Assembly: GCF_030815855.1 (NCBI RefSeq)
Contig: NZ_JAUSXG010000001.1
Span: 1,922,001 to 1,986,000, forward strand
Source of the DNA: Variovorax paradoxus
GTDB lineage: Bacteria; Pseudomonadota; Gammaproteobacteria; Burkholderiales; Burkholderiaceae_C
Direction of reading: 5' to 3'
Length of the DNA: 64,000 bases
The stretch's first letter is position 1. The number at the start of each line of letters is the position of its first letter. A program made the translations under genes and the position numbers. Under the pieces are notes generated by a model that was not told the DNA's origin, ran no database searches, and worked only from the letters and a program-made list of their open reading frames with translations. Positions 26,319-54,933 of this stretch are shown in pieces.

Positions 26319-26342
26319 GCCCCATCATTGTTCCGTCAAACC

Positions 26343-29680: not shown

Positions 29681-30511
29681 TCACTCCACGGGTGTCGGCA
29701 CCGGACTTCTGATCATGAGTTTCACGGTGTAAGGCCCCACGCTGTTGAGCTTCGAGGCGCCGTACAGAAACTCGCCCGTGTGCCTGAACCCAAAGCCCTT
29801 GAAAACACGACTGTCGTTGCGATCTGGATTGCTGCTTTGAAGCAAGTAGGAGAGTTGATGAAGGTCGGCCAACCGCTGAAACGGTCGCGACATTCGAGAG
29901 GCCACGCGCTTCTGCTCGTGCGTCGGGTGGACGCAGACCATGCCGCCGTAGATGCATCGTTCGGGCACACCTTCGCGCACGCGCATTGCATGGGTCGCGC
30001 GCTGCAGCGCGACCGAAGCGCTCTGGGCCGCGAGAGTTCGGCGCAAGCCGTAGGCACGTAGGGCGGCATAGCCGCCAACCGTCAGTTCATGCAAAAGCCC
30101 CGGTGTCGACGGGACGGCGCTCGGCAATGTTCTGAGCGCCGCACCGCGGACTGTGCGGTCGCCATGCAGTTCATCGTGCGCGGTCTCCAGAACCACCACA
30201 CCGCCCGTTCGGAGCGCCGCCTGCAGAAGGTAGTGAATGACGCGGCCGATTTTTTTCTCGGCATCGACGAAGTCGCCTGCACGAATGCGCTGCACATCGG
30301 CGGTTCGTAGCCATGCAATCCACGCCTTGTCGCCGTTTCTTACGAATGCCTGCGCCATCACCGAGGCCGCATGCACCAAGTCGTCCGATGTTGCGGCGAT
30401 GTGCACCCGAGGTGCGCCCGGCTCTGCCTTACTCACAGCGTTCTGCTGTTCGATCAGTTCTGCCAGGCTTTGAAGGATGGCGGCTTCGATGTTGAGTTGG
30501 ATATGGCGCAC
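29681..30511 (-). CDS. GNAT-like protein, paralogue of the product of 50711-51577
   Basis: 276 residues; last gene of the 18-gene operon, 6 bp after the decarboxylase gene. It has a GNAT-acetyltransferase-like outline: an N-terminal helix-strand unit (VHIAATSDDLVHAASVMAQA), a central VVVLETAHDE strand, and the end GFRHTGEFLYGASKLNSVGP. It aligns along its whole length with the plus-strand protein at 50711-51577 (shared MAQAFV, ARCIY/ERCIYGG-type turn and SVGPYT(V/I)(K/N)LMIR end). A clear acetyl-CoA P-loop (Q/RxxGxG/A) is not visible, so acyl transfer is only a suggestion. Confidence 0.65.
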   Translation of the reverse strand: MRHIQLNIEAAILQSLAELIEQQNAVSKAEPGAPRVHIAATSDDLVHAASVMAQAFVRNGDKAWIAWLRTADVQRIRAGDFVDAEKKIGRVIHYLLQAALRTGGVVVLETAHDELHGDRTVRGAALRTLPSAVPSTPGLLHELTVGGYAALRAYGLRRTLAAQSASVALQRATHAMRVREGVPERCIYGGMVCVHPTHEQKRVASRMSRPFQRLADLHQLSYLLQSSNPDRNDSRVFKGFGFRHTGEFLYGASKLNSVGPYTVKLMIRSPVPTPVE

Positions 30512-30517
30512 GGAAGG

Positions 30518-31651
30518 TCAATCCAGCTCGTGCGCTTCGACCGTCACGAGGTGATCGACGGTAAAGCCATTGAATGCGCAGCGCACGCTTTCCGAATAGG
30601 CGCCCACATGCTGGAACTCGATCCAGTCGCCTTCTTGCAGGTGGGCGGGCAGAGCATACGGAAACGCAAGTCGGTCATTGCTGTCGCAGGTTGGGCCGAA
30701 GACGACGAACTCGCGGCGGTCGCCAGCCGCCACAACGATCGGCTCGCCGCCGCGCCATGCTCGCACTGGCAGCTGGAAGAACTGCTGCGCCGGCAGCAGC
30801 CCGCCGAAGATGCCGGCGCCGCAGTAGAGCGCTTGGTCTTTGCGAAGGATGATCCGCGCAAAGAGCGACATGCAGTCGTACGCCAGCACGCGCCCCGGTT
30901 CGCACAACAGCTCCACACGCTTCAGCGCTGCAGACGAGGTGACGAACTCGCCCAGCCGCGCAAGCATGGCGGCTGGTGGCGGCATCGGCATGTTGTCGTA
31001 GCGCGCCGGAAAGCCGCCACCGATGTCGAGCGCGGCCACGGGGGCATCCGCCTGTTCGATCAGCCTGGCGGCCGTCTGCATTGCGTTGAGGTAGGGCTCG
31101 ACACTGATCGTCTGCGAGCCCGGGTGGAACGCGATGCCCGACGACCACGCAGTCTGCGACGCAATGCGCTGGAGAAGGCGCAGTGTCTCTTCGTGCGAAG
31201 CGCCGAACTTGCTGTTCAGGTCGTAGAGGGCGTCCGACGCGCCCGAGTGAAACCGCACATAGATGCGCAGCGAAGGCTCCCGTGTGGGCAGCACCTCGAG
31301 CAGCTTGTCGAGCTCCGCGGTGCAATCGACCACGAAATCCCGCAGCCCCAGTTCGCGCCAGGCGCGCTCGATGTCGCGGCGCGACTTGGCGGGGTTCATG
31401 AACCAGCAGCGTGCGCCCGGCGCCTCGGCCTGCACGAGAAGGGCTTCGCCGATCGAGGCCACGTCGAAGCCTGCCACGCCCGCGGCGCGGACGGTGGAGA
31501 TCACCTGCGGCAAGGGGTTGGCCTTCACCGCATACAGCACGCTGCCCGGAAAGCCCTCGACGAAGTCCCTCGTCGCGTGGGCGAGGCGGGCGGGGTTGAA
31601 GGTGTAGAACGCGTCGAACTCTGTCGCGCGGACGGCGGTGGCGAACTGCAT
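30518..31651 (-). CDS. PLP-dependent decarboxylase, ornithine/lysine decarboxylase-like
   Basis: 377 residues from ATG 31651. Fold-type III (alanine-racemase-like barrel) decarboxylase. Seen: PLP lysine in YAVKANPLP, glycine-rich phosphate loop LDIGGGFP, CEPGRVLAYD, and the C-terminal catalytic cysteine/aspartate motif GPTCDSNDRL shared with eukaryotic-type ornithine decarboxylases. Expected reaction: decarboxylation of a basic amino acid to a diamine such as putrescine or cadaverine. In this cluster it probably supplies the amine building block. The particular substrate cannot be read from sequence. Confidence 0.9.
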   Translation of the reverse strand: MQFATAVRATEFDAFYTFNPARLAHATRDFVEGFPGSVLYAVKANPLPQVISTVRAAGVAGFDVASIGEALLVQAEAPGARCWFMNPAKSRRDIERAWRELGLRDFVVDCTAELDKLLEVLPTREPSLRIYVRFHSGASDALYDLNSKFGASHEETLRLLQRIASQTAWSSGIAFHPGSQTISVEPYLNAMQTAARLIEQADAPVAALDIGGGFPARYDNMPMPPPAAMLARLGEFVTSSAALKRVELLCEPGRVLAYDCMSLFARIILRKDQALYCGAGIFGGLLPAQQFFQLPVRAWRGGEPIVVAAGDRREFVVFGPTCDSNDRLAFPYALPAHLQEGDWIEFQHVGAYSESVRCAFNGFTVDHLVTVEAHELD

Positions 31652-31685
31652 GATGCTTGTCTCTCGTCTGTGGTGTGGATGTCGT

Positions 31686-32471
31686 TCAGCGTGCAAGAAG
31701 GCCAGCGCCGTGCAGGTAGGGCATCAGGCCGGCAATGCTCTGCAGTTCCGTGTCGGGGGCTGCCGCGTCCGGTGCGCGCGGCGTCTCGCCCTTGCCGGTG
31801 CGTACCAGCACGCTCGCAAGGCCCGAGGCCCTGGCGCCCGCGATGTCGGTGAGCAGGTCATCGCCCACCACCAGCGCTTCGCCGGCGGAAACGCCGAGGG
31901 CGTCGAGCGCGGCCTGGAAGAACACCGCGGAGGGCTTGCCGGTGACGATGGCCGCCTGGCCGGCCGCGGCCTCCAGCCCGAGGATGAACGCGCCGGCGTC
32001 CAGCCGGGGCGGCCCGGCGCCGTCGAACCAGTAGAGGTTGCGGTGCGGCACCACCAGTTGCGCGCCGTCGCGCAGCATGCGGAAGATCCCGTTGAGCAGG
32101 TCGTAGTCGAAGCGCTCCGCCACGTCGCCGATCACGACGAAGTCGGGCCTGCGATCGTCGCGCCGCATGTCCTCGAAGAGGGCGGCCATGGCGTCGGGCA
32201 CCAGCAGGTGGCACGACGTATCGGGCTGCCTGCGGATGTAGGCGCTGCAGGCCATGCCCGCGGTCTGGATGCTGTCTTCGGCCACATCGATGCCGCATGC
32301 CTGCAGCCCGGCGGCGATGTGATGCGGCAGCTTGGCGCTGATATTGGTCAGCAGTCGCACCGCGAGGCCCGCCTCCGCCGCCTCCTGCAGCGCCCGGTTC
32401 GCACCGGCGATGGCTTCGCCCCGAAAGAGCAGGGTGCCGTCGATGTCGATCAGCAGCGCCTTCAGTGCCAT
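31686..32471 (-). CDS. HAD-superfamily phosphatase (subfamily IIA, LHPP/HDHD2-like)
   Basis: 261 residues from ATG 32471, overlapping the upstream gene's stop by 10 bp. The four HAD motifs are intact: LIDIDGTLL (nucleophile and acid Asp), LLTNISAK, IVTGKPSAVFF (Lys) and VVGDDLLTDI. A type IIA cap lies between motifs II and III. It resembles NagD and the LHPP/HDHD2 group, which remove phosphate from sugars, amino-acid phosphates or pyrophosphate. It may remove a protecting phosphate from the cluster's product. Its substrate is unknown. Confidence 0.85.
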   Translation of the reverse strand: MALKALLIDIDGTLLFRGEAIAGANRALQEAAEAGLAVRLLTNISAKLPHHIAAGLQACGIDVAEDSIQTAGMACSAYIRRQPDTSCHLLVPDAMAALFEDMRRDDRRPDFVVIGDVAERFDYDLLNGIFRMLRDGAQLVVPHRNLYWFDGAGPPRLDAGAFILGLEAAAGQAAIVTGKPSAVFFQAALDALGVSAGEALVVGDDLLTDIAGARASGLASVLVRTGKGETPRAPDAAAPDTELQSIAGLMPYLHGAGLLAR

Positions 32472-34108
32472 GCGTGCGCCTCCCGCGACGGCGCGGCGTG
32501 CGCGGGCCGGCCCAGTTCGGCCATAAGAGCCGGAGCCAGCTGTACCAGCGTCAGCGGCGCCTGCCATGGCGGCGTGCCGGGCTGCGGCGTCGGCTCCAGG
32601 AAGACGCCCTTGAGCCATGGCGCGTCGGACCAGCAGGTGTGGTCGCCGCCCTTGCGGCTTTCCACGGCAAACGGCAGATGTGGCGATTTGAGCAGGCGGG
32701 CGCATGTGGGCGGTTGCAGGTACCAGGGGCTCGTCCATCCGCCGCCCAGATCGACCACCGGCCCCTCGATCAGCCGGAAGGCGCCGGGAAGCTCGGGCGG
32801 CAGGGCGCCGTCCAGCGCATCGACGATGGCCTGCGTCGTCACCCCGGCCGCTGCCATGCGCGCGGGATGCAGGGCCAGCCAGCCGTTCTCGGCCGGGTGA
32901 TAGAACGCCAGCGAGCGCTCCGTGTCGATCTGCCCAGCGCCGATTGTCATGAGCCAGCCCTGTGCCGCAAAGCAGCGGTTGGGTGCGAGGTCGTGGCTCA
33001 GCGGCTGCATGCCGTGGTCAGAGTGCGCGATGAAGCGGCAGCCCGGTGCGAGCAGCGCCTGACAGCCATCGAACAGCTCGAAGAGCCAGCGCGCCAGGCG
33101 CGCGCGGATCGCACTGGCTACCGCATGCTGCGACGCGATCGAGGCGGGTTCGAGATGGCGCAGCAGCTGGTGCGACACCAGGTCGATCACGGGGTAGTAG
33201 CCCACCGTGAGCTCTGCACCGCCCGCGCGCAGGCTCCACAGGATGTCATCGAGAAAGCTGCGGTGCATCACCTCGAGCAGGTCGAGCAGCAGCAGCTCGG
33301 CCGAACCGTCGCCGCCTTGGTCGGCGTGCCGACCCAGCGCGCCGCTCGCGTGCAGTTTGGCGGGGTTGCCCACGCTGCAGGCGCGATGGCGCAACGCCAG
33401 CCTGCGCAAGGCAGCGTCACGGCCATGCACGAACACCGGCTGAAAGCCCAGGAAGCACAGCCGCGGCTCGCCGCCCACGTGCGCGGCGTGAACTGCCACC
33501 GCACGGTTGGTGTCGCCGGCCAGCGCGGTCGGCAGTGCCGGGGACAGGGCGACATGGCAAGTGCCGCCAAAAGGCACGCGCAGATCGCCGCCGGTCGGCA
33601 CGTCGTGAAGCACCATCGCGCTTTTGTCGGGCGATACCGAAACGGCGCAACGCAGCTGCAGCGCCGGCACCGACAGCGCATCGCCTGGTGCCAGCACCGC
33701 GGGCGGGCCCACGGGGCGTGCATACACCTCAGTGTGCGACAGCAGCGCACCCGCGAGCCGCGACGGCTGCACGAAGGGCACTGCGCTGGTGCGGATGTGG
33801 CCGCCCGCGGCGGCCCAGCGGTCCCACACCATCGGTGTGGCGCGTGGCCAGCGGCCGAACGCATCGGCGACCGCCAACGGGTCGCCCGCCTCGGGGTCGG
33901 GAATCTCGTAGCCCGTGAGGCCATGCGCGCTGGTGTCGAGCCCGCTCCAGATGCTGAACAGCGAAGGCGGCGTCTGGCAGTTGGGCGACAGTGGCTCCAG
34001 CGGCAGCGCGCAATCCACGCCCAGCGGCAGTAGCGGCGCGAGCTGCTGCCACAGCGCGTGCGAAAGGCCGTCGACCAGCAGCCAGAACAGGCCCTTCGCG
34101 GGTGTCAT
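32462..34108 (-). CDS. Alkaline-phosphatase-superfamily phosphodiesterase/phosphatase-like protein
   Basis: 548 residues from ATG 34108, ATGA overlap with the kinase gene upstream. Metal-site residues typical of type I phosphodiesterases and phosphomutases are visible: FWLLVDGLS (Asp), the nucleophile region NCQTPPSLFSIWSGLD (Thr), VIDLVSHQ (Asp and His), FIAHSDHGMQ (Asp-His) and late GGDHTCWSD (His). A long insertion at about 110-250 is beta-rich. It probably hydrolyses or transfers phosphate on a cluster intermediate; no signal peptide, so cytoplasmic. Confidence 0.75.
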   Translation of the reverse strand: MTPAKGLFWLLVDGLSHALWQQLAPLLPLGVDCALPLEPLSPNCQTPPSLFSIWSGLDTSAHGLTGYEIPDPEAGDPLAVADAFGRWPRATPMVWDRWAAAGGHIRTSAVPFVQPSRLAGALLSHTEVYARPVGPPAVLAPGDALSVPALQLRCAVSVSPDKSAMVLHDVPTGGDLRVPFGGTCHVALSPALPTALAGDTNRAVAVHAAHVGGEPRLCFLGFQPVFVHGRDAALRRLALRHRACSVGNPAKLHASGALGRHADQGGDGSAELLLLDLLEVMHRSFLDDILWSLRAGGAELTVGYYPVIDLVSHQLLRHLEPASIASQHAVASAIRARLARWLFELFDGCQALLAPGCRFIAHSDHGMQPLSHDLAPNRCFAAQGWLMTIGAGQIDTERSLAFYHPAENGWLALHPARMAAAGVTTQAIVDALDGALPPELPGAFRLIEGPVVDLGGGWTSPWYLQPPTCARLLKSPHLPFAVESRKGGDHTCWSDAPWLKGVFLEPTPQPGTPPWQAPLTLVQLAPALMAELGRPAHAAPSREAHAWH

Positions 34109-34719
34109 GCCGCGGCCTCGACGCGCTTGCCCACGAGCAGCCGGCATAGGCCGTCCACCTGCGCCTCCAATGCAGCAAGGCTGCCGTTGTTGGTAAGCAC
34201 GTAATCGGCTTCGATGCGTGCCATCTGCAGGTCGAGAGGGCTGTCCTTCACGACGCTGAGATCGTTCCGTTCGGCCAGCCGCTGCGCACGGACCTCGGCG
34301 CGCGCTGCCACCTTGACCACCCGGAAGCCCGCTTCGCGCAATGCGGGCCAGTCGACGCGGTCGTCGCGCAGGTCGTCGTTGATCACCACGTCGGCGTGCG
34401 AAGCCGTCAGGCGCCGCAGGAAGCCATCGGCCAGCGCGCGCGCATGAATGGCGCGCAGGTGCGTGGCCACGCTTTCCAGCAGCTTCTGGTCCTGCGTCTC
34501 GGGCGTGAGGGCGATGCCCGCCTCGGCATAGAACATGGCCTGGATACGGTACAGCGGCTCGGCCAGCTTCACGACTTCGACCGAGCGCCCGCGCGCGAAC
34601 AGCCAGTTGCGGATCAGTTGCGCGGTCGTGCTCTTGCCCGAGCCGCTGGGTGCCACGAGGCACAGGCACAAGCCGGGGCGCGTAGCGGCCGTTTCCGTGG
34701 AGATGATCTGGTTCGGCAT
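34105..34719 (-). CDS. P-loop small-molecule kinase
   Basis: 204 residues with Walker A motif APSGSGKSTTAQL at about 23-35 and an LID-like basic region VVKVAARAEVRAQRLAER. The VINDDLRDDRVDW segment sits where nucleoside and shikimate-type kinases bind substrate. Ribosome binding site GGGGAG precedes ATG 34719. It overlaps the phosphodiesterase-like gene by 4 bp. Its size and layout fit dNMP/nucleoside or amino-alcohol kinases; the acceptor is unknown. Confidence 0.78.
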   Translation of the reverse strand: MPNQIISTETAATRPGLCLCLVAPSGSGKSTTAQLIRNWLFARGRSVEVVKLAEPLYRIQAMFYAEAGIALTPETQDQKLLESVATHLRAIHARALADGFLRRLTASHADVVINDDLRDDRVDWPALREAGFRVVKVAARAEVRAQRLAERNDLSVVKDSPLDLQMARIEADYVLTNNGSLAALEAQVDGLCRLLVGKRVEAAA

Positions 34720-34741
34720 GTGCGGTGCTCCCCTTGTCCGC

Positions 34742-35791
34742 TCAGGCGGCGGCCAGCGTCGCGCGGCCGGGCGTGCTGACCCAGGGCAAGGTGCCTAGCG
34801 CGGCGGCGACGGGTGCGGCCACGCGCCGCTCCATCGGACGGTCGGCCGGCGGCATGCCGTGCCAGGTCGAGGTGATGAAGGTGTGCGGCCACTCGAAGAT
34901 GTGCGGATCGCGCAGCACGTCATCGATCTCCTCGCCGCGCAGCGGCCGGGCGCGCAGCGCCTCGTCCACCGCAACCTCGGGCAGCACGATACGCTCGAGC
35001 CAGCCGCTGCCCACGGGGCTGCGGCCGACGACATTTGCGAAGGCTTCGGGCGTGAGCAGGATCTTGTCGGAATTGGCGCGCGCCGGGTCCAGTGCCGCAC
35101 GGGCTTCGCTGCCGAGCCGCTCGACCAGCGCCGGGTGCTGCCGTAGAGAGCCCAGGCCGATGTGCGGGTAATCGGGCCAACCGCGCGCGCGCAGCCGGCC
35201 GTCCACCACGTCCAGCAGCAGCTTGTCGCCCGAGAAATAGCGGTGTCCTTGGCTGAGCACGAGGTCGAGCATGGTTGTGGTCTTGCCCGCGCCTTTGACG
35301 CCTGCGATGGCGATCACGCCGCCGGTCTTCTCGTCGAGCACGGCCGAGCTGTGCAGGATGGCCGTGCCCTTGGCCTGCTCGACCAGCAGGCCGAAGTAGC
35401 GCACGAGTTCGATCAGGTGGACGAACGCCGTCGCTTCGCTGCCATAGAACGAAACTTCGCGCCGCGCGGTGCTGTAGCGGTAGCCCACGCGCGTGTCGGC
35501 GTCCCATGCGAGTTGCGTGCCGTCGTCCAGCGTGCCGCGCACCACCTTGAGCGTGAAGCCGATGGCGTAGGTTTCGCGGATTGTCATCGGTGCCGTGCAG
35601 CGCGCGCGCCACGCGGGCAGGAAGTCGCCAGCGGCGTGCAGGTCGACCGCCAGGTCCGGCGCGCCGTCTTCGGTACCGGCCCAGAGGTAGGGCGAGAGAA
35701 AGGTCCGCAGGCGCGTCGCCAGCGGTCTCGATGCCTCGCCCGCCCGCAAGCGCAGGCTGAATACGGTATTCGTCAACAGGCTGTCCATCAT
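34742..35791 (-). CDS. HPr-kinase-like P-loop protein
   Basis: 349 residues from ATG 35791 (ATGA overlap). The HprK-like ATPase domain has Walker A in AIAGVKGAGKTTTMLDLVL at about 172-190, then HRYFSGDKLLLDVVDG, where HprK proteins place the catalytic Asp, and YPHIGLGSLR. The N-terminal 150 residues form a separate domain with IRETYAIGFTLKVV and RYSTARREVSFYG. HprK-related kinases in lasso-peptide clusters phosphorylate the product. No lasso precursor, cyclase or PqqD-like protein is present here, so this one probably acts on another substrate. Confidence 0.78.
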   Translation of the reverse strand: MMDSLLTNTVFSLRLRAGEASRPLATRLRTFLSPYLWAGTEDGAPDLAVDLHAAGDFLPAWRARCTAPMTIRETYAIGFTLKVVRGTLDDGTQLAWDADTRVGYRYSTARREVSFYGSEATAFVHLIELVRYFGLLVEQAKGTAILHSSAVLDEKTGGVIAIAGVKGAGKTTTMLDLVLSQGHRYFSGDKLLLDVVDGRLRARGWPDYPHIGLGSLRQHPALVERLGSEARAALDPARANSDKILLTPEAFANVVGRSPVGSGWLERIVLPEVAVDEALRARPLRGEEIDDVLRDPHIFEWPHTFITSTWHGMPPADRPMERRVAAPVAAALGTLPWVSTPGRATLAAA

Positions 35792-36912
35792 GGGCGGGTG
35801 CTTCCTTGGGCAATGCGGTCGTAAAAATGGGCGATGCCTCCGGGGTCGGGCCGGGCATCGAGCCCTTGCCGACGGAGAAACTGCAAGACCTTGTCGCGCA
35901 GCGCGGCCTGCTCCTGCGCGACGAGCGCGGCGTTGCCGTCGCCGCGGGTGCGCAGGTAGCCGATCGAGCAATAGAAAACGGGCGTTTCGGCCTGCGCGCA
36001 GGAAAAGCCCACGCTGAAGAGGTTGCCCGTTTCGAGGGACTCGCAGCCCGAACTCGCCCGCGTGTGGCGCCACCGCACGACAGGCCGCAGCGGCAGGTCG
36101 AAGTGCTGGGCGAGATCGACTTCGACTGCCGCGCCGTAGGGTTGGTCGGGCAGGCGCTGTTCTGTCCATGGTGCGCTGTCGTCCCCTCGAAGTACCGCGC
36201 TGAATTCGGCCAGCGGCTCCAGCACCGTGGCGCGGCGTTTGCGGCTGAAGAGCGCTGCATTGGCCCAGCCGCGCCGGCCCTCGAGATGGGGCAGCACGCG
36301 GCACAGGACGTTGTCGTGGCTGCCGTGCTGCAGCTCGTCGCCGATCTGCGCGACGAAGTGCGAGGGGGTGTCGGCGTCGAGCGCGTCGAGCCAGGCATCG
36401 CCGAGCGCCAGCACGTCGAGCGGCGCTGTCGCTTCGATGGCCACGTGCAGTTCCTCCGGCGCGGCATGCACGGCGTAGTAGCACTCGTAGTTGCTGGTCT
36501 GCAGGTGGTTGGCCTGGAAGGCCTGCCACAGCTGTTCGTACAGCTGTGGCGGCGCGAAAGGAGGCACCGGCATCGGCGGCGCGATGAAATGCGCCACGTG
36601 GCGGTCGGCGCGGTCGACCAGGTGCCTGATGTGCACCAGCCCGCCGTCGATGTCCACATGGGCCAGCGGCACCCAGTCGGGGTCGACGTTGTGGCTCGGC
36701 ACGGCAGGGGCGGCATCGGGGGCGGGCTGCCATGTCGCGTCCACGCAATGCGCGACGAGTGCGTGCACGCCGCGGCAGTCCGCCTGCGCTGCGCGCGCGC
36801 CCAAACGGGCGGCCACGCGCTGAACGCGCAGCCGCCGTGCCGCTTCGGGCGAGGGCTCGGCATGGCGCAGGCGCCAGTTGCCGAACACGATCATCGAGGT
36901 CGCATCTCTCAT
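35788..36912 (-). CDS. CYTH-like protein B, paralogue of the next upstream gene
   Basis: 374 residues; ATGA overlap on both sides. On its own it matches nothing I know, but it aligns with the product of 36909-38132 in its second half: EELHVAIEA against the partner's LEMERKF, ALFSRKRRATVLEP against MTVKRKW, RWRHTRASSGCESLETGNLF against RRKRFDAQFESLATGNIF, and YCSIGYLRTRG against CEVEYCRTRS. It lacks the canonical ExExK, so it may be a non-catalytic partner. It has no signal peptide or membrane segment. Confidence 0.6.
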   Translation of the reverse strand: MRDATSMIVFGNWRLRHAEPSPEAARRLRVQRVAARLGARAAQADCRGVHALVAHCVDATWQPAPDAAPAVPSHNVDPDWVPLAHVDIDGGLVHIRHLVDRADRHVAHFIAPPMPVPPFAPPQLYEQLWQAFQANHLQTSNYECYYAVHAAPEELHVAIEATAPLDVLALGDAWLDALDADTPSHFVAQIGDELQHGSHDNVLCRVLPHLEGRRGWANAALFSRKRRATVLEPLAEFSAVLRGDDSAPWTEQRLPDQPYGAAVEVDLAQHFDLPLRPVVRWRHTRASSGCESLETGNLFSVGFSCAQAETPVFYCSIGYLRTRGDGNAALVAQEQAALRDKVLQFLRRQGLDARPDPGGIAHFYDRIAQGSTRP

Positions 36913-40051: not shown

Positions 40052-40067
40052 GGCGTGCCGCTCCTTG

Positions 40068-45010: not shown

Positions 45011-45567
45011 AGCGAAGTCATCAACGGCGCGAGGAATCCGGCATCGCAGCCGACGCGCTCGCAAGCCTTGTTGGCCGAGCGCAGGAAGCGCAGTACGTGG
45101 CCTTGGTTCTGGGGTTGCAGCGCATCGACGAGGTCGCTCGGAAATGCCGCGAGCAGTTCTTCGAGCACGGTGATGAGCCGGTCGACCTCCGTGCCATCGG
45201 TTGGCGCGTCGAGCCCGATGAGCCGGGTGGCGGTGGGGCCGTCCATTGCCGCCACATCGCTCAATCCGTACGCCATGAGCAGCGATAGGCGATGCATCTC
45301 GTGCGGCACGGCGGCGCGGCCGAGCACCGCATCCACTTGCAGCAGCAACTCCGCGATCTTGATCTTGACGAGCGCCGCCGCATCCGGGATGTCGCGTGCG
45401 CCCGCCAGGTCTTCGATGTAGGCACGCAGTTCGGTCATGAGCAGCCAGGCGGCGCTGATGGTCGAGGTGACATGCTCGCCCGCGGCAAACCGGTAGCCCG
45501 CGTTGATCCGCGGGAACCAGCGGATGCCGCGCACGGTCGGGGGCTTCGGCTCAGTCGGCGAGGGCAT
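45007..45567 (-). CDS. Cluster protein of unknown function (186 aa)
   Basis: A soluble, all-helical protein (TSTISAAWLLMTELRAYIED; ALVKIKIAELLLQVDAVLG). No phosphopantetheine serine motif, so not an acyl carrier protein. It overlaps the aminotransferase gene by 4 bp and the nucleotidyltransferase-like gene by 17 bp, which implies translational coupling. No family recognised. It could be a partner of the nucleotidyltransferase-like protein encoded just before it. Confidence 0.65.
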   Translation of the reverse strand: MPSPTEPKPPTVRGIRWFPRINAGYRFAAGEHVTSTISAAWLLMTELRAYIEDLAGARDIPDAAALVKIKIAELLLQVDAVLGRAAVPHEMHRLSLLMAYGLSDVAAMDGPTATRLIGLDAPTDGTEVDRLITVLEELLAAFPSDLVDALQPQNQGHVLRFLRSANKACERVGCDAGFLAPLMTSL

Positions 45568-46636
45568 GGGCGTCTTCCTTTTCTTCCGCGGAGGAATTGG
45601 CGGCCACGAGCGAGAAATTCAGTGTGCCGCTGCGTGCGCTGCGCAGCAGCGAGGCCGCATGCGCGGTGGCGATGGTGGCCAGGCTTGCGAGGTCTGCCGG
45701 TGCGTCCTGTGCCTCGATCGTCGCAGCGAGCCGGGCACGGCCGTCGCCGCCGATCAGGAAGGCCGAGCGCTTGTCGAGCGCAGCTTGCGTGCAGGGGGCT
45801 GTGGTGTGGGGCATTGCGCCGGAGAGCGACGGTGCGCCCAGCAGGAGGCCGAGCCGCCGGTCGATCTCGTCCAGTGCGGCGATCTCTTGCGTGGTGGCGG
45901 CGGGTGCCAGTTCGCAAACCGACGACCACATCGCAGTGAGTCGCTCTTGCAGCAACGCATCGACCACGCGCATGCGCGGACCCGCCGCTTCGCGCCAGCG
46001 TCGCAAGGTCCACTTCTTGTTCGACAGCACCCAGCCGCCGAGCGACAGCGCGGCCGCCATCGCAGACAGGCAGGCGTTGATCAGGTAGCCGCGCGCGGCG
46101 TCGAGCTCGCCGGCGCGCTCCGCTAGCATGGCGCAGACGCGGCCCTGGTGAAAGGCGTCGTATTCCTGTGCGGCCACGACCGGGACCAGCGCGGGCAGGT
46201 GCGCGATATGGTGCGCTCGGCCATCGGTGGCCACGGCGTAGACGATGCGCTCCAGATATTTCTTGCGCACGGCATGGCCGCTGTCCCAGCGCTGGTAGCC
46301 CGCGAGGCGCTGCGGCAGGGAGCACCGCGACAGCAGCGCGAGATCGGAGAAGGCCTGCGCCAGGTCGTCGGCGCCTATCGGCAGGATCTCGCAATGCTGG
46401 CCGTCGCGGTGGATCTGCGTGGCCATTTGGCCCTTGCTCACGGCTTGCGGCGTCACGCAGATGAGGTCGATGTCGCTCGTGGCGGTAGCGATGCCGTGCA
46501 CCGGCGAACTCGTGAGCAGCACCTGCGCGCCGTCGAAGCCTTGCTCGCGCGCCAGTGTCGCGAGCATGTCGAAGCCGATGTTCCGGCTGCGCAGGAACGC
46601 ACCGGCATTGGCCGTGACGAAATCCGTGTAGTTCAC
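45551..46636 (-). CDS. Nucleotidyltransferase-fold protein
   Basis: 361 residues. The N-terminal segment VLLTSSPVHGIATATSDIDL contains the pattern G-S-x(n)-SDID of DNA polymerase beta-like nucleotidyltransferases (about residues 40-60), with ATQIHRDGQHCEILPIG supplying a possible third acidic residue. The C-terminal 220 residues are helical (DELARGYLINACLSAMAAAL). It may adenylylate or otherwise nucleotidylate a small molecule. The second gene of the operon. Confidence 0.65.
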   Translation of the reverse strand: MNYTDFVTANAGAFLRSRNIGFDMLATLAREQGFDGAQVLLTSSPVHGIATATSDIDLICVTPQAVSKGQMATQIHRDGQHCEILPIGADDLAQAFSDLALLSRCSLPQRLAGYQRWDSGHAVRKKYLERIVYAVATDGRAHHIAHLPALVPVVAAQEYDAFHQGRVCAMLAERAGELDAARGYLINACLSAMAAALSLGGWVLSNKKWTLRRWREAAGPRMRVVDALLQERLTAMWSSVCELAPAATTQEIAALDEIDRRLGLLLGAPSLSGAMPHTTAPCTQAALDKRSAFLIGGDGRARLAATIEAQDAPADLASLATIATAHAASLLRSARSGTLNFSLVAANSSAEEKEDAHALAD

Positions 46637-46675
46637 TGTCTGATGCTCCGCGTGGTGTCGACGGTGTCGCTGCGC

Positions 46676-47470
46676 TCAGGCGAATCCGTAGGGACCCGCG
46701 AACGTGCCGATGTGGCTCACATGGCTGACCATGCCGTGCACCTCATCCCACAGGTGCAGCATGCAGCCGCGCGGTCCGATGTGGGATTGCGGCTGCGCAT
46801 CGGGAGCGAGCTGCAGATCAATCTCTGTCGTGGTGCTGGGGCAGGAGCACACGATGGTCCCGGCCCAGCGTCGCAGCATCGTGCGATGCACATGTCCGCA
46901 GAGCACGAGTTCGATGTTGGGCGCCGCACGCACCACACCCTCCAACTGCTGCACCTCCATGTAGCGGTACATGTCCATGTAGGGGATGCCACTCATGAAG
47001 GGTGGATGGTGGAGCATGAGCAGCGTGGGCTTGCTCGTGTCCTGCGCGAGCACGCGCGCCAGCCAGGCGAGCCCTTGCGCATCGATGTGCCCGTGGTGCT
47101 TTCCGGTAGGGCACGAGTCGAGACCAATGAATCGCACTGGATGGTCGTCGATGCACCAATGCAGGGCGCCGTCCGCGGGCAGGTACGGATGATCGTGAAA
47201 CGCGGCGCGAAAGTTCTCGCGGTGATCGTGGTTGCCCGGAATCACGAGGAACGGAATGAGCGAGGCCGACAGCAACTCGCGCACCATCGCGTATTCCTCT
47301 GGCCGACCTTCGTCGACGAGGTCGCCGGTGATCAGGAGCAGATCGGGGCGCCGGTCGAGTGCGTGCACATGCGCAAGCGCCTCGGAGAACATGCGATTCG
47401 AATCCGCCACGCCTTGGTACAGCACGCCTTCGGGCCGGATGTGCGGGTCGGACAACTGCGCGATGAGCAT
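46676..47470 (-). CDS. Metallophosphoesterase (CpdA/GpdQ-like phosphodiesterase)
   Basis: 264 residues from ATG 47470, with GAGGAG 4 bp upstream; the longer frame to 47515 adds an unnatural leader. The calcineurin-like motifs are complete: AQLSDPHI (DxH), LLITGDLVDEG (GDxxD), VIPGNHD (GNHD), LLMLHHPP and LCGHVHR (GHxH). This layout matches class III cyclic-nucleotide and glycerophosphodiester phosphodiesterases. First gene of the 18-gene operon, next to the divergent control region. Confidence 0.9.
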   Translation of the reverse strand: MLIAQLSDPHIRPEGVLYQGVADSNRMFSEALAHVHALDRRPDLLLITGDLVDEGRPEEYAMVRELLSASLIPFLVIPGNHDHRENFRAAFHDHPYLPADGALHWCIDDHPVRFIGLDSCPTGKHHGHIDAQGLAWLARVLAQDTSKPTLLMLHHPPFMSGIPYMDMYRYMEVQQLEGVVRAAPNIELVLCGHVHRTMLRRWAGTIVCSCPSTTTEIDLQLAPDAQPQSHIGPRGCMLHLWDEVHGMVSHVSHIGTFAGPYGFA

Positions 47471-47637
47471 GTGACTCCTCGATGAACAGGCTGTCATGGT
47501 GTTGTCATGCATCAAGCGCAGCCATACGCCTGATGGCGTAGCGGCACAAAGTATTCATGCCGCACTCAATGCATTTGCTTTGACGTAAAAACGCGCGCTG
47601 ACATCGGGCCGTTCCGATTGCAAGGAGGAATGGAATC
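47471..47637. promoter_or_regulatory. Divergent control region of the 22-gene cluster
   Basis: All 22 genes read away from this 167-bp space. It contains a perfect inverted repeat TACGCC-TGAT-GGCGTA at 47525-47540, two TGTCATG repeats at about 47492 and 47505, and an AT-rich patch with TTTGACG near 47580 as a possible -35 element for the plus operon. A strong AAGGAGG precedes ATG 47638. No regulator gene lies inside the cluster, so control must come from elsewhere. Confidence 0.5.
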
Positions 47638-49482
47638 ATGAGTTCTCCACGTCTAGCGCCTGCTGCGACGGTGATGACGCACCGCGCGGACGACGCGCTC
47701 TATGCAACCGGGCAGCCGTTAAGGCCGTACCCGCAAACGTTGCTGGATCATCTCGACGCATGGGCGCGGGATGCACCCGATCGTGTGTTCCTCGCTGAAC
47801 GCGACGGCGAGGCATGGCGCACGGTGCGCTATGCCGCAACGCGCGAACGCGTGCATGCCATCGCACGGAGGCTGCTGCAGGATGGCGCGCCGGTCGACAG
47901 CACGCTGCTGCTGATCGACGGAAACTCGATCGCGCACGCGCTGCTGTCGCTCGCGGCGATGGCCATCGGCGTGATCGTGGTTCCGGTGTCGCCGGTGCAC
48001 CTGCACAGCGCACAGGGGCTCGCACGCATCGCGAGCATTGTGCAGCGCATACGGCCCGCGCTTGCGTACATGGCCGATGCAATCGTGTCTCGCCCATCTC
48101 TTGGCGAAGCCGATACGTGCAGGTGGCTGCCGCCGGAGATGCTCGCCGGCGCCGCAACCCAGGAGACCGACGACGGATTGCACGCGCTCTTTCGCGAACG
48201 CAGGGCACGAATCGACGGCGACACATGGGCAAAGTTTCTTCTCACCTCCGGCTCCACGGGGTTGCCAAAGATCGTGATTCACACGCAGCGCATGCTCTGC
48301 GCGCAACAGCAGCAGATGGCGCAGCTCTGGCAGTTTCTCGAAGACAGCCCGCCCGTTCTGTGCGACTGGCTGCCTTGGAACCACACCTCGGGCGGCAACA
48401 ACAGTTTCAACATGACGCTGCGCAACGGCGGCACGCTGTTCATCGACGAGGGAAGGCCGACGTTGAAGGACATCGGGCAAAGCGTGCGCAACCTGCGCGA
48501 GGTGTCACCCACCTGGTACACCAACGTGCCGCTCGGCTATGCGGCGCTGCTGCCGTATCTCGAAGTCGATGCATCCTTTGCCGACGCCTTCTTCCGCCGG
48601 CTCGACCTGCTGGTGTACGGCGGTGCGCCGCTGCCCGCCGATCTCTGGCGGCGCATGGATGCGCTGTGCCGCCGCTGCACCGGGCATGCCGCGCGTTGGG
48701 CCAGCGGATGGGGGCTGACGGAGACGACCTCGACCTCGGCCATTACGCATTTCGAGACGGCCGGCACCGGCGAGATCGGCGTGCCGCTGCCGGGCATGAG
48801 CTTCAGGCTTCTGCCACGGCGAGGCCTCTACGCCGTGGCGGTGAAGGGGCCCAACGTCACGCCGGGCTATCTTGGCGACGAGGAGCGCACGCGCGAGGCG
48901 TTCGACGATGAAGGCTTCTTCCGGACAGGCGACCTGGTTTCCTTCGTCGACCCCGGCAACCCCGATGCGGGCCTGCGCTACGAAGGCCGTTCAAGCGACG
49001 AGTTCAAGCTCGGCAGCGGCATCTGGGTGGTGCCCGGGCGCATCAAGGCCAACCTGCTTTCGCACACCGGCCCGCTGGTGCAGGACGTTGTGGTGGCCGG
49101 GCCAGGCAGGCTGCAACTGGTTGTCTTCCTCTGGCTGAACGCCGAGCTGGCGCGGCGGGACTTCGAAGGTCCGGCCGATGAGCGCGGGCAAGCCGCGGGC
49201 AGGGGAGCGTTGCTGCGTTTTCTCGAGGGAGCCTTGGCCGCCTACAACGCGGTGCACACCGGTTCGAGCGAGTCGATCGTGCGGGCCTGCGTGCTGCTGG
49301 AGCCGCCGAGCGCGGCCTTCGGCGAGCTGACCGACAAGGGCACCATCAACCAACGCCGCTTTCTCTCGCGGCGCGCGGTCGTCGTCGAGGCCCAGTACGC
49401 ACACGCGGCACGGCAGGCGGGCGCGGTGGTCGAATTCGCGGTGGGCGAGAGCCTGGCCCCACACCCCGTCGCCGCATGTTGA
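47638..49482 (+). CDS. Acyl-CoA ligase, feruloyl-CoA-synthase-like (AMP-binding)
   Basis: 614 residues with ribosome binding site AAGGAGG. ATP-dependent adenylating enzyme: P-loop FLLTSGSTGLPKIVIHTQRM, DWLPWNHTSGGNNSFNMTLR (as in feruloyl-CoA synthases), ASGWGLTETTSTSAI, FRTGDLVSF and near the C-terminus LTDKGTINQRR with the catalytic lysine. It activates a carboxylic acid, aromatic or fatty. No carrier protein is encoded in the cluster, so CoA is the likely acceptor. First gene of the four-gene plus-strand operon. Confidence 0.88.
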   Translation: MSSPRLAPAATVMTHRADDALYATGQPLRPYPQTLLDHLDAWARDAPDRVFLAERDGEAWRTVRYAATRERVHAIARRLLQDGAPVDSTLLLIDGNSIAHALLSLAAMAIGVIVVPVSPVHLHSAQGLARIASIVQRIRPALAYMADAIVSRPSLGEADTCRWLPPEMLAGAATQETDDGLHALFRERRARIDGDTWAKFLLTSGSTGLPKIVIHTQRMLCAQQQQMAQLWQFLEDSPPVLCDWLPWNHTSGGNNSFNMTLRNGGTLFIDEGRPTLKDIGQSVRNLREVSPTWYTNVPLGYAALLPYLEVDASFADAFFRRLDLLVYGGAPLPADLWRRMDALCRRCTGHAARWASGWGLTETTSTSAITHFETAGTGEIGVPLPGMSFRLLPRRGLYAVAVKGPNVTPGYLGDEERTREAFDDEGFFRTGDLVSFVDPGNPDAGLRYEGRSSDEFKLGSGIWVVPGRIKANLLSHTGPLVQDVVVAGPGRLQLVVFLWLNAELARRDFEGPADERGQAAGRGALLRFLEGALAAYNAVHTGSSESIVRACVLLEPPSAAFGELTDKGTINQRRFLSRRAVVVEAQYAHAARQAGAVVEFAVGESLAPHPVAAC

Positions 49483-50714
49483 AGCCCGTCACCGCCATGC
49501 CGGGTGCCAAGGAGTTCATCGTGCTGGCCGCGGCCATCATGTCGGTGAACGCGGTGGCGATCGATACGCTGCTGCCGGCTCTGGCCGCTGTCGGCGCCGC
49601 GGTGGATGCCGGCGAGGACAACCGAAGGCAATGGTTGATCACCGCCTACCTGATCGGGTTCGGTACCTCACAGCTTGTCTACGGCACGCTGTCGGATCAC
49701 TATGGCCGCAAGCCCTTGATGTTGGCGGGTCTTGCACTCTATACGGCCTTTGCGGCGCTGAGCATGCTGGCCAGCAACTTTGGGACTGCGGTAGCCCTGC
49801 GTGTGCTGCAAGGGTGCGGCGGCGGGGTGAGCGTGCTCGCGCTGTCGATCATCCGGGATCGCCATTCGGGCGACGAGATGGTGCGCGTGATGTCGCTGGC
49901 CTTCATGCTCTTTCTGGGTATTCCGATCTTCGCGCCTTCGCTGGGCCACGCGATCCTGGTGGCCTCGTCGTGGCAGTGGGTGTTCGCCGCCACCGCTCTC
50001 TTCGGTGCGCTGCTGATGCCATGGGTGGCGCTGCGCCTGCCCGAGACGCTGCCGCCCGAGCGTCGCATGCCGCTATCGCTGCAGGCGGTGACGCGCGCCA
50101 TCGGGCACGTGCTGCGACAGCGCGATTCGCTCGGCTACACGCTGGCGTCTACCGCGCTCGTGGGGGCGCTGTTCGGCATCGTGACGTCGGGCCAGCAGCT
50201 GTTCGCGAACGTGTTCCATGCGTCCGAGGCGTTTCCGGTGGTCTTCGGCACGGTCGCAACCTGCGTTGCGTTGTCCGCGCTGCTCAACGGGCGCGTCGTG
50301 GGCCGCTTCGGCGCGCGATGTACTTCGCACCTCGCATTGATGGGCTACCTGCTCGTCGCATGCGTGCACGGGGCGGTGGCGTGGTCGGGGCTGGAGAGGC
50401 CATGGATATTCACGGTGCTGCAATCGGCGTTGATGTTCTGTTTCGGCCTGATGCTGGCGAACTTCGGGTCGCTCGCGATGGCGCGGCTCGCTCACATCGC
50501 AGGCACGGCCTCCGCAGTTCAGAGCCTGGTCATCAATGTGGGCGGCGCGCTGGTCGGCATCTTCATCGGGCAGCGCTTCGACGGCACCGCAGTGCCCATG
50601 ACGTTGGGCTCGATCGCCTGCGGCTGTGCGGCGCTGGCGATGGTGCTCATGGCCGAACGCGGGCGCCTGTTCCAGCCGGTGGCGGCGCCACTGCCGATGC
50701 GGGCGGCAGGATGA
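49476..50714 (+). CDS. MFS drug/metabolite exporter (Bcr/CflA-like)
   Basis: 412 residues, twelve predicted membrane helices. The family motif between helices 2 and 3 is GTLSDHYGRKPLMLAGLALY, and helix 5 contains the antiporter-like LGIPIFAPSLG. Bcr/CflA transporters export sulfonamides, bicyclomycin and dipeptides by proton antiport. Start ATG 49476 overlaps the ligase stop. It is the probable exporter of the product and a self-resistance determinant. Confidence 0.88.
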   Translation: MLKPVTAMPGAKEFIVLAAAIMSVNAVAIDTLLPALAAVGAAVDAGEDNRRQWLITAYLIGFGTSQLVYGTLSDHYGRKPLMLAGLALYTAFAALSMLASNFGTAVALRVLQGCGGGVSVLALSIIRDRHSGDEMVRVMSLAFMLFLGIPIFAPSLGHAILVASSWQWVFAATALFGALLMPWVALRLPETLPPERRMPLSLQAVTRAIGHVLRQRDSLGYTLASTALVGALFGIVTSGQQLFANVFHASEAFPVVFGTVATCVALSALLNGRVVGRFGARCTSHLALMGYLLVACVHGAVAWSGLERPWIFTVLQSALMFCFGLMLANFGSLAMARLAHIAGTASAVQSLVINVGGALVGIFIGQRFDGTAVPMTLGSIACGCAALAMVLMAERGRLFQPVAAPLPMRAAG

Positions 50715-51577
50715 GCGACTCCTCCGTGCCAGAGAAATCCCGGCCTCTGCGGCCGCTCAACGTGGAGCCGGCGCTGCTGCAGGGCCTGAATCAGCACATC
50801 GCGGCACTGAACACGGCGGACGCCGCGCTGCCCGGTCGCCCCGCCGTCGAGATCGCAAGCACCAGGGCACAGGTGGCTTCGGCCGCGCGGCTGATGGCGC
50901 AGGCCTTCGTGCACAACCAGGACAAGGGCTGGCTCGCATGGCTGCCGCCTTCGGAGGTGGCGCGCGTTCGCGCGGGCGACACCCCGCGGGCGCAGGAAAA
51001 GATCGCGCGCGTGATCGACTATTTGTGCGCGGCTTCGGCCTTCGAGGGAGGGCTGGTGCTGCTCGAATCGGCGCAGGCGTCGGATGCAGCGGACAGACGC
51101 GAGATCCGCGGCGCCTCGCTGTGGGGGCTTCCACCGGCTGTACCCTGCACCGAGCCATGGTGGCACCTGGCGGCTTTCGGCGCGCCGGCCGCATTGCGTG
51201 GTTATGGACCGCTGCGTGCGATAGCTGCCGCGTGTGCCGCGAACGCATTGGTGCGAGCCTCGGAGGAGACGATGCACCGCCTCGGCTTCCCGGCGCGCTG
51301 CATCTACGCCCAGATGGGATGCGTCAAGCCCGCGCATCAAGGCCAGCGCGTTTCGCGGCGCATGTTCGAGCCGTTCCGCCTCCTCGCGGATCGTTTCGAC
51401 CTCGTGTACAGGCTCGAGAGCAGCAGCCCCGAGACGAATGACCAACGCGTTTTCTCTAACTTCCGCTTCGAGAAGATCGGGGAGCACCGCTTCGGCGCCT
51501 CGCGGTTCAACAGCGTCGGACCCTACACGATCAATCTCATGATCAGAAGGCCGCCACCCGAGGTGTCATGTCCCTGA
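50711..51577 (+). CDS. GNAT-like protein, paralogue of the product of 29681-30511
   Basis: 288 residues; ATGA overlap with the MFS gene, overlaps the next gene by 10 bp. N-terminal RAQVASAARLMAQAFVHNQD, GGLVLLESAQASD, LGFPARCIYAQMGCVKPAHQ (a plausible V-x-P-x-x-Q-x-x-R acetyl-CoA loop, VKPAHQGQRVSRRM) and the end RFGASRFNSVGPYTINLMIR. The loop is better kept than in its paralogue at the other end of the cluster. Likely an N-acyltransferase; acceptor and acyl donor unknown. Confidence 0.7.
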   Translation: MSDSSVPEKSRPLRPLNVEPALLQGLNQHIAALNTADAALPGRPAVEIASTRAQVASAARLMAQAFVHNQDKGWLAWLPPSEVARVRAGDTPRAQEKIARVIDYLCAASAFEGGLVLLESAQASDAADRREIRGASLWGLPPAVPCTEPWWHLAAFGAPAALRGYGPLRAIAAACAANALVRASEETMHRLGFPARCIYAQMGCVKPAHQGQRVSRRMFEPFRLLADRFDLVYRLESSSPETNDQRVFSNFRFEKIGEHRFGASRFNSVGPYTINLMIRRPPPEVSCP

Positions 51578-52653
51578 CCTTCCGTCAAGTCGATCCTTCC
51601 GATGAGGATTTTCGCGCCCGGTGGAATGCACGGGTGGCGGAGCACGAGCTCTCGCTGGATATCGAGTTCCTCCGGCTCCTGGCCGGCGTCGAATCCGAAG
51701 CCGCGTACTACTTCGTGCAGGCCTCGGATGCGGCAGGGCATGTGCGCGCGCTGGCCTGCTACTCAATCGCGCAGATGCGTGTGCTGCGCTTCGTTCCGTT
51801 TCGCGTGCTGGTGATGGGCGGCACAGTCGCTGCAGGCAAGGCGTTCTGGTTCGATGTCGACGCGCTCGATTTCGCGTCGTTCCTCGCCGCTTTCGAGGCC
51901 TTCGTGAAAGCCGAAGTGCGGTGCGACATTCTTGTGCTCAAGGAGTTCTCACCGGACCGAGACGAAGAGTCGATGCGTTCGATGGCCAAGGCGGGCTTCA
52001 TTGCGCAGATGTGCTACGACCGGAGCAGCCTCGCATTGCCAGCGGACGGGAAAATGCAGAGCTTTCTCGAATTGCTCCCATCGAAGAAGAGACGGTACTT
52101 GCGGCAAGTGTTGGCGCAGGGGCAGGTGGCAAATCTCGAGGTCGAGGTTCACCGGCGTTTCGATCACCTGATCGATGCCGTCTATTCGCTCTATCTGGAG
52201 GTGAACGGACGGGCCAGCGAAGCGCGTACCCCGGCCTTGCCTCGCCGGTTCTTTGCGGCCTTGGGGCAGCTTGATCGCGCCGCGCAGATGTTGACGATCT
52301 CGCAGGGCAAGAGGACGATCGGGTTCGGTCTGCTGATGCAGCGCGGAGAGAAGCTCAAGTGCATGGTGATTGGTCTCGACTATGAGGTGTCGAGAGAGCT
52401 TCAGCTCTGGTACCAGATCGTCATTCGTTCGATCGAGCACGCCCTGAACAGCGGCTGCACCAGCGTCGATCTGGGCTCGACCAACCACAGCATGAAGCGT
52501 AAGTTCGGTGCCGAGCGCGAAGACATCTGGGTCGCGGTGCGCCATCGGAACCGCTTGATCACGCGGCTGATAACCCCATTGATCCGGCATTTCCTATCAA
52601 CGATTTACCGACCGCGGGCAAGCGCACTTCCCGTCGTCGACGATCCTGCCTGA
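51568..52653 (+). CDS. FemAB/BioF2-like GNAT acyltransferase
   Basis: 361 residues. Second half is a GNAT-type domain of the peptidogalycan/FemAB-like group: KKRRYLRQVLAQGQ, IDAVYSLYLEV, QGKRTIGFGLLMQRGEKLKC, YEVSRELQLWYQIVIRSIEH and DLGSTNHSMKRKFGAE. These enzymes transfer amino-acyl or acyl groups to amines. Last gene of the plus-strand operon. With two GNAT-like paralogues it gives the cluster three candidate acyltransferases. Confidence 0.72.
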   Translation: MSLTFRQVDPSDEDFRARWNARVAEHELSLDIEFLRLLAGVESEAAYYFVQASDAAGHVRALACYSIAQMRVLRFVPFRVLVMGGTVAAGKAFWFDVDALDFASFLAAFEAFVKAEVRCDILVLKEFSPDRDEESMRSMAKAGFIAQMCYDRSSLALPADGKMQSFLELLPSKKRRYLRQVLAQGQVANLEVEVHRRFDHLIDAVYSLYLEVNGRASEARTPALPRRFFAALGQLDRAAQMLTISQGKRTIGFGLLMQRGEKLKCMVIGLDYEVSRELQLWYQIVIRSIEHALNSGCTSVDLGSTNHSMKRKFGAEREDIWVAVRHRNRLITRLITPLIRHFLSTIYRPRASALPVVDDPA

Positions 52654-54105: not shown

Positions 54106-54125
54106 GTTCCTCCCTTCCCGTGGAA

Positions 54126-54932: not shown

Positions 54933-54933
54933 T

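Follow-up and report, generated by a model that had tools for sequence, protein, structure and literature searches.

A 22-gene cluster of Variovorax paradoxus with a phaseolotoxin-type phosphoryl core, probably for an exported phosphoramidate

For phaseolotoxin, the making of its three nitrogen-phosphorus (N-P) bonds is described as poorly understood (PMC4530439), and most genes of its cluster, the Pht/argK-tox cluster of Pseudomonas savastanoi pv. phaseolicola, are described as being of unknown function (PMC5453526). The published gene list (PMC3927611, Table 2) comprises phtD, phtE, phtF (ornithine aminotransferase), phtG, phtH, desI, phtJ and phtK (both dcd) and phtL (pyruvate phosphate dikinase, PPDK), with phtH and desI both named fatty acid desaturase. 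PhtL is required for phaseolotoxin and N-P bond making has been proposed for it; the genes agnD1 and agnD2 of agrocin 84 have been named phtL homologues (both PMC4530439). Together with sulphostin, a phosphosulfamate of Streptomyces, the phaseolotoxins are the only natural phosphotriamidates named in PMC6429109, and according to PMC9113183 (2021) nothing is known on sulphostin biosynthesis. In Campylobacter jejuni, O-methyl phosphoramidate arises by a pathway in which an amide nitrogen is phosphorylated by a glutamine kinase and 3'-phospho-cytidine diphosphoramidate follows (PMC6429109). Here a divergent set of 22 genes (g1-g22, Table 1) is compared with these systems; it lies at 29681-52653 of a 64,000-nucleotide stretch of Variovorax paradoxus DNA, called the window below (contig NZ_JAUSXG010000001.1, positions 1,922,001 to 1,986,000).

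The 22 genes are read here, with a probability of roughly 0.78, as a cluster for an exported phosphoramidate (N-P) small molecule in which warhead genes of the phaseolotoxin type are combined with a different scaffold; in other words, Variovorax probably makes a relative of the phaseolotoxin class. Set against phtD-phtL, the order g17, g16, g15, g14, g13, g12, g11, g10, g9 agrees in position and family at six of the nine genes, namely D (by primers), F, desI, J, K and L. The comparison was made with the published gene list and with the peptides coded by NPS3121 primers (tables in PMC5453526 and PMC9695256), not with full Pht sequences. Both phtD primers code for peptides, SSAVHG and LLSMSG, that occur with 6/6 residues in the DUF6001 proteins P0020, P0023 and P0024 (positions 46 and 199); 6/6 was never reached in 300 shuffles, and SSAVHG by itself is a motif of the entire DUF6001 family. 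Four of five phtL-named oligonucleotides code for peptides of the PPDK-type protein P0050 on the right strand and in the right order (at 153, 285, 341 and 624, with 6, 6, 6 and 5 of 6 residues), and of 300 shuffles of the four against P0050 alone, 290 gave no fit of at least 5/6 and 10 gave one of four. P0050, which shares 53% identity with g9 over 96%, is a relative fitting the primers, not a proven NPS3121 protein. To g9 itself the primers phtL fw, rv and P12718 fit no better than to other proteins of the window (sole exception FIPIA, 5/6), therefore the link to PhtL runs through P0050. Primer 1253 of phtJ codes for ATDPYANLS and g11 has ATELYANLS, the best match among 26 proteins tested, and the complement of primer P11311 (phtM-N pair) codes for AQDQKL, which in g5 reads TQDQKL. 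In the same comparison no clear match was found for P12556 or for the phtA, phtB and argK primers.

In a midpoint-rooted tree of 36 PPDK proteins, with long branches for Roseobacter, Nocardia, Paenibacillus and others, the nearest clade to that of g9 (Variovorax, Albitalea, Roseateles) is its sister of P0048, P0050 and P0051 (support 98/95), all three of which carry the primer-coded LYTAAD. P0051 is named from P. syringae pv. syringae, as is the DUF6001 protein P0025, and the contigs bearing the two are equally long (71355). From the primer-coded peptides, and for g9 also the tree, g9, g17 and g11 are taken as the orthologues of PhtL, PhtD and PhtJ. The preliminary description of this DNA, made from its letters without database searches, could not match the genes to a known pathway; order, primers and tree now identify its unusual phosphoryl enzymes with those of the Pht cluster. 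Its view of the system as undescribed is accordingly to be narrowed: the phosphoryl core is of the known Pht type, while the combination of genes as such, its scaffold part and its product appear not to have been described. In the open-licence full-text literature no paper was found for DUF6001 or for DUF6031, and among the matches listed (10 of 13) none joined phaseolotoxin or sulfodiaminophosphinyl with Variovorax. Two P. syringae PPDK proteins, P0054 and P0060, with the most members among the 120 matches listed (59 and 154 member sequences respectively), were rejected as PhtL; they are of the type found in loci L007-L010, lack LYTAAD and group with the L009 cluster. Pseudomonas genomes of the phtL type were sought through P0060 and P0050, which matched 2/298 and 3/398 genomes, none of the primer-matching type.

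Gene calling gives 18 minus-strand genes (29681-47470) and four plus-strand genes (47638-52653) around a 167-bp gap, in agreement with the preliminary description, which slightly overstated the junctions in reporting ATGA overlaps for most of them: overlaps are common (12 of 17 minus-strand junctions), those of 4 bp being found in 8 of 17. The start of g19 at 47638 gives the longer open reading frame and has a conserved ribosome site; the gene caller itself chose 47674. All 22 genes stand in identical order in V. paradoxus ISL-81, V. gossypii and V. sp. SG517 (gene calls, longer stretches) and the flanks differ on both sides, therefore the set is one unit, as had been supposed, and 29681-52653 is a fair border for it. 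An extra 376-aa gene follows g22 in two of these three clusters, its V. gossypii copy belonging to the fatty acid hydroxylase family. The same conserved order refutes a chance juxtaposition of unrelated operons, for which the divergent promoters and a 39-bp gap between g17 and g18 could be quoted, and leaves it with practically no probability. The GC fraction is 0.65-0.71 inside the cluster (2-kb steps) compared with 0.59-0.63 within 4 kb on either side; the host genome is a single contig of 5.95 Mb. Within the genus, 4 of 101 genomes contain DUF6001, including that of the window; among 399 genomes drawn from the order it was found in one, again that of the window, and among 14 control genomes in none.

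Thirty loci from Proteobacteria, Actinobacteria, Paenibacillus and one Aminicenantes metagenome-assembled genome (MAG) were collected with a DUF6001 profile scan, which makes the presence of g17 in all of them a matter of construction, and the other genes were scored by tblastn, with longer stretches for 11 loci. Found in 25-30 of the 30 loci, the phosphoryl genes form the conserved core; the scaffold genes vary, and the aminotransferase and the short-chain dehydrogenase/reductase (SDR) come and go together, g13 and g15 being present in the same 15 loci and g12 in 14 of those. A recurring core of DUF6001, DUF6031, START, two Dcd-like proteins, PPDK-like kinase, CYTH, two more kinases and phosphodiesterase spans Proteobacteria, Actinobacteria and Paenibacillus. 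The Dcd-like pair and the PPDK-like gene, singled out in the preliminary description, are each found in 29 loci (in L016 the g11 match lies on the Dcd-A copy); of the CYTH-like pair named beside them, g8 is likewise found in 29 and g7 in at most 11, some of its matches falling on the g8 gene (g7 matches the g8 stretch at 23-25% in five loci, L019-L022 and L024). The loci in which g4-g6 were missed are L007, L008 and L010, which stop close to where these genes would be expected, and L013, a short contig of a MAG; gene calls of OK074b were poor and tblastn was used instead.

These counts bear on the route implied by the preliminary description, in which an acyl chain is activated, desaturated, reduced, transaminated to an amine, acylated and exported, with the phosphoryl enzymes as accessories. 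A CoA ligase (g19), a desaturase-family protein (g12), a reductase (g13) and an aminotransferase (g15) are indeed present, but the route is very improbable: against 25-30 loci for the phosphoryl genes, g12, g13 and g15 are found in 14-15 and g19 in five, two of them weak (L013 and L014, 27% or less), and the NCBIfam model scoring best for g12 is the GntB arginine hydroxylase (106 bits, below the cut-off of 380). Because of this score 'desaturase' may be a misnomer both here and for DesI.

In Dcd proteins an Arg and a Glu are catalytic, as assigned in the Escherichia coli enzyme, and the sites lie between subunits. Aligned with solved Dcd proteins, g10 (Dcd-A) keeps the RSSxxR stretch and has Gln in place of their Glu, g11 (Dcd-B) keeps the Glu and has lost the second Arg, and in neither are the RSSxxR and catalytic Glu of dCTP deaminases intact in one chain. 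All 29 aligned rows of Dcd-A have R,S,S,R,Q at these sites, all 27 of Dcd-B retain the Glu with L, S, A or T replacing the Arg, and one of each is found in 26 of the 28 loci of the alignment table, from which matches shorter than 120 residues were dropped (L011 and L016 show only Dcd-A, L013 and L014 have no rows, and for the L011 genome the longer stretch does contain a Dcd-B). The pairs of Roseobacter and Paenibacillus, read by eye in longer stretches, follow the same rule. The loss of complementary catalytic residues by two Dcd-like proteins in every aligned copy is a new observation, and g10 and g11 would on these residues form a heteromer with a composite, non-deaminating site. In all 18 actinobacterial loci the PPDK-like kinase carries Dcd-A as an N-terminal fusion, which none of the 10 proteobacterial loci shows.

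The proposed pathway would start with g9, which combines ATP-binding and phosphohistidine domains (no barrel binding phosphoenolpyruvate was found in it) and would move phosphate from ATP via its histidine onto nitrogen. Its histidine motif is SMLCHLAILLRE, a strict pattern matched by 33 of 59 PhtL-family proteins over 600 aa. The phosphoramidate would then be converted by g17, which has the fold and acidic triad of ANT-type nucleotidyltransferases, to a nucleotide-activated form, most likely with CTP, and g10/g11 would bind the cytidine nucleotide at their shared, probably non-deaminating site. The kinases g5 and g6, g8 (with the tunnel fold and ExExK of the CYTH/triphosphate-tunnel superfamily) and the phosphatases g3, g4 and g18 would phosphorylate, transfer and trim intermediates; g12, g13 and g15 would build or oxidise an amine carrier, g2, g19, g1, g21 and g22 would make and acylate the scaffold, and g20 would export the product. 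Such a core of nitrogen kinase, nucleotidyltransferase, two cytidine-nucleotide-type folds, kinases and phosphatases would fit a route like that of Campylobacter, which serves capsule decoration and is likened to the Variovorax cluster by description, not by sequence; the same applies to agrocin 84, a nucleotide antibiotic.

If the N-P reading holds, the odds for the CTP step are perhaps even. The link to cytidine is provided by the Dcd-like pair, by the nucleotidyltransferase fold of g17 and, in a single reduced Pseudomonas cluster (G327, 1 of 398 genomes), by a CTP synthase; this cluster also holds Dcd-B, Dcd-A, PPDK, two CYTH-like proteins, an HprK-like protein, a kinase, a phosphodiesterase and an aminotransferase. 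From the complementary Dcd loss, the Dcd-A/kinase fusion and this CTP synthase we infer, tentatively and with the odds rather against it, a P-N assembly line carried on a cytidine nucleotide and common to phaseolotoxin and other molecules of three phyla; the decayed Dcd pair may form a composite site (Arg/Ser from one partner, Glu from the other) that handles CDP-phosphoramidate and is coupled to the PPDK-like nitrogen kinase. A different account competes only with nucleotide activation by g17 and cytidine binding by g10/g11: the CTP synthase and the ornithine carbamoyltransferase (OTC) genes near clusters would be targets, the Dcd pair would be unrelated to cytidine, and activation would use ATP or no nucleotide. 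Paralogues of targets commonly serve as resistance genes, which suits this account. It also agrees with phaseolotoxin targeting OTC and ArgK being resistant (PMC4530439), but it is rather unlikely, since Dcd is present as two distinct copies in 26 of 28 loci and in the two clusters read by eye, and in view of the actinobacterial fusion. With regard to the G327 cluster, its loci L091 and L092 also hold an ATP-grasp ligase, EamA and TauE exporters and two metallophosphoesterases, its CTP synthase is a paralogue, and its third-position GC is below that of its neighbours.

A product identical with phaseolotoxin, or with its warhead amino acid PSorn, an OTC inhibitor, could be expected from the shared phtD-phtL block and from true OTC genes close to the related clusters of Paenibacillus (one copy) and Actinobacteria OK074 (two copies), 2 of 19 genomes compared, several of the others having the cluster in short contigs. 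This is nevertheless improbable. No equivalent of argK, amtA, phtQ/phtU, phtS or phtA was recognised in the cluster (for AmtA and the ATP-grasp PhtQ/PhtU the 22 genes were searched and the rest of the genome was not), and in place of an ArgK beside a housekeeping OTC the genome has one OTC, one aspartate carbamoyltransferase (ATC) and one ATC-like gene. The latter (56121-57050) was rejected as an ArgK-like resistance gene: it is aspartate-type (TIGR00670 207.9 bits, cut-off 236.95), nearly all of the 40 solved relatives listed for it are named aspartate transcarbamoylases, and it has no counterpart in 40-kb stretches around the cluster in the three other Variovorax. In contrast to Pht, the Variovorax cluster has an extra pyridoxal phosphate (PLP) decarboxylase, CoA ligase, GNAT/FemAB acyltransferases, a major facilitator superfamily (MFS) protein and a metallophosphoesterase, and because decarboxylase, CoA ligase, two GNAT-like and FemAB-like genes have been added an acylated amine scaffold is suggested. 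The CYTH-like genes adjoin the PPDK gene in Variovorax, whereas the CYTH-like PhtB (54% confidence) sits in the phtA operon (PMC5453526).

Several points weigh against an exported phosphoramidate of phaseolotoxin type. Amidinotransferase, ATP-grasp ligase, sulfotransferase and APS (adenosine phosphosulfate) kinase were not recognised by Pfam or NCBIfam among the 22 genes, therefore the molecule departs from phaseolotoxin in its scaffold and perhaps also in its sulfo group, and the single OTC of the genome means that there is no ArgK-type resistance. In the Pht comparison, phtE and phtG are 'hypothetical' in the list and give no support; phtH is named fatty acid desaturase, yet g13 at its position is an SDR; F, I, K and P were assigned by position and family names only; P0050 was itself chosen, from the PhtL-type proteins listed, for fitting best; the fifth phtL-named oligonucleotide, L100116 (listed with the phtJ-K pair), fits none of those proteins, and both desI primers fit g12 poorly. 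The loci were chosen via DUF6001, of which the G327 cluster has no match within 40 kb. The use of CTP is a proposal, and the CTP synthase may instead be a copy of a target or a resistance gene.

The enzyme families named in the preliminary description were for the most part recovered with Pfam and NCBIfam (PLP decarboxylase, desaturase, SDR, aminotransferase, acyl-CoA synthetase, MFS), and its nucleotidyltransferase is g17. Its CYTH-like pair stood for g8, confirmed by fold, and g7 turned out to be only a weak paralogue of g8; the HprK-like assignment of g6 has a match to HprK-related-B of 33.8 bits, far under the cut-off of 200. As for the GNAT/FemAB acyltransferases, g22 was borne out by Pfam and g1 and g21 are paralogues of each other. 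The Polyketide_cyc family of g14 was absent from that description. A sequence search of the PDB gave no match for g4, and for g5 ABC-type P-loops and thymidylate kinases. Against plasmids, g6 gave no match, g8 matched five Streptomyces plasmids, and g9 matched 230 records, none spanning 80% of it.

Table 1. Genes and control region of the cluster (window coordinates) and presence in the 30 loci
Feature	Position	Strand	Assignment	Loci (of 30)
g1	29681..30511	-	GNAT-like, paralogue of g21; no Pfam/NCBIfam match; 47-48% to g21 orthologues	3 (Variovorax ones)
g2	30518..31651	-	fold-III PLP decarboxylase (diaminopimelate/ornithine/arginine type); PF02784, PF00278	8
g3	31686..32471	-	HAD-IIA phosphatase; PF13344/PF13242, TIGR01460; family candidate for PhtP	21
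g4	32462..34108	-	type I phosphodiesterase/nucleotide pyrophosphatase family; core; PF01663	26
g5	34105..34719	-	P-loop kinase; core; candidate PhtN; weak AAA/dephospho-CoA-kinase-like matches	25
g6	34742..35791	-	HprK-related P-loop kinase; core; TIGR04355 below cut-off	26
g7	35788..36912	-	weak CYTH-like paralogue of g8; no Pfam match	at most 11
g8	36909..38132	-	CYTH/triphosphate-tunnel protein; core	29
g9	38129..40051	-	PPDK-like kinase; PhtL orthologue; core; PF01326 + PF00391	29
g10	40068..40670	-	Dcd-A, PhtK by position; PF22769; RSSxAR kept, catalytic Glu to Gln	29
g11	40667..41185	-	Dcd-B, PhtJ orthologue; PF22769; catalytic Glu kept, second Arg of RSSxAR lost	29 (one on Dcd-A copy)
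g12	41166..42179	-	di-iron desaturase/hydroxylase family, DesI by position and family; PF00487; three His boxes	14
g13	42176..43291	-	thioester-reductase-like SDR at phtH position; PF07993; TIGR01746 below cut-off	15
g14	43288..43749	-	START/Polyketide_cyc protein at phtG position; core; PF03364	29
g15	43742..45010	-	class III aminotransferase, PhtF by position and family; PF00202	15
g16	45007..45567	-	DUF6031 at phtE position; core; PF19496	30 (loci chosen by neighbour g17)
g17	45551..46636	-	DUF6001 nucleotidyltransferase-fold protein; PhtD orthologue; core	30 (by construction)
g18	46676..47470	-	CpdA-like metallophosphoesterase; PF00149	20
Divergent control region	47471..47637	.	conserved in 4 Variovorax aligned	
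g19	47638..49482	+	acyl-CoA synthetase (PRK12582 type); PF00501; NF009232 573 bits, cut-off 777	5 (two weak)
g20	49476..50714	+	predicted Bcr/CflA-type MFS exporter; PF07690; TIGR00710 below cut-off	4
g21	50726..51577	+	GNAT-like paralogue of g1; no Pfam or NCBIfam match	3
g22	51568..52653	+	FemAB-like/GNAT6 acyltransferase; PF13480	4

The control region contains the inverted repeat TACGCC-TGAT-GGCGTA inside 47523-47541, likewise conserved in the four aligned Variovorax; the 19-base stretch has one exact copy in the host genome of the window and its near matches are no commoner than those of a reversed control. A regulator gene was not recognised among the cluster genes. To the right lies a separate minus-strand operon (r1-r4, 52951-57050) of a YbdK-type carboxylate-amine ligase (GCS2-like; NF010040 445 bits, cut-off 425), a methyltransferase, an MFS protein and the ATC-like paralogue; the regular ATC is elsewhere in the genome. 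The operon is placed outside the cluster because its carbamoyltransferase is aspartate-type and nothing corresponding to r1-r4 lies within the 40-kb stretches from the other three Variovorax; it may form a small cluster in which the ATC-like gene is a resistance copy or a copy of the target. The apparent r4 matches in L014 and L015 are OTC genes. An IS66 transposase trio lies to the left of the cluster (24726-27112).

Among the related clusters, those of the P. syringae group (L007-L010; P. amygdali, P. congelans, P. caricapapayae, P. graminis) have the same core and the aminotransferase-SDR-desaturase block and share g2 and g18 with Variovorax (45-49%), relatives of g2 being found also in Robbsia clusters. 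In the one longer stretch examined, that of P. caricapapayae, oligopeptide ABC transporter genes adjoin, and there is no match to g1 or g19-g22. The 14 actinobacterial loci without aminotransferase and SDR matches would be candidates for sulphostin. Actinobacteria OK074 (L080) has two phaseolotoxin-type loci, L015 and L021, one of them with the two true OTC genes nearby, and an L-amino-acid-ligase-like ATP-grasp protein at L081:7056-8306. A Peptidase_C26/glutamine amidotransferase gene (L085:10960-11721) adjoins the Roseobacter cluster and calls to mind the hydrolase step in the phosphoramidate pathway of Campylobacter.

Comparison of the Variovorax cluster with its kin sets the scaffold genes apart from a common core and offers predictions at the level of single residues and domains, that is the complementary Dcd pair and the PhtL-Dcd fusion. 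Variovorax, which does not belong to the P. syringae pathogens, is a further genus in which N-P assembly can be studied, and a new phosphoramidate natural product is predicted, with kin clusters in Streptomyces, Roseobacter and Paenibacillus.

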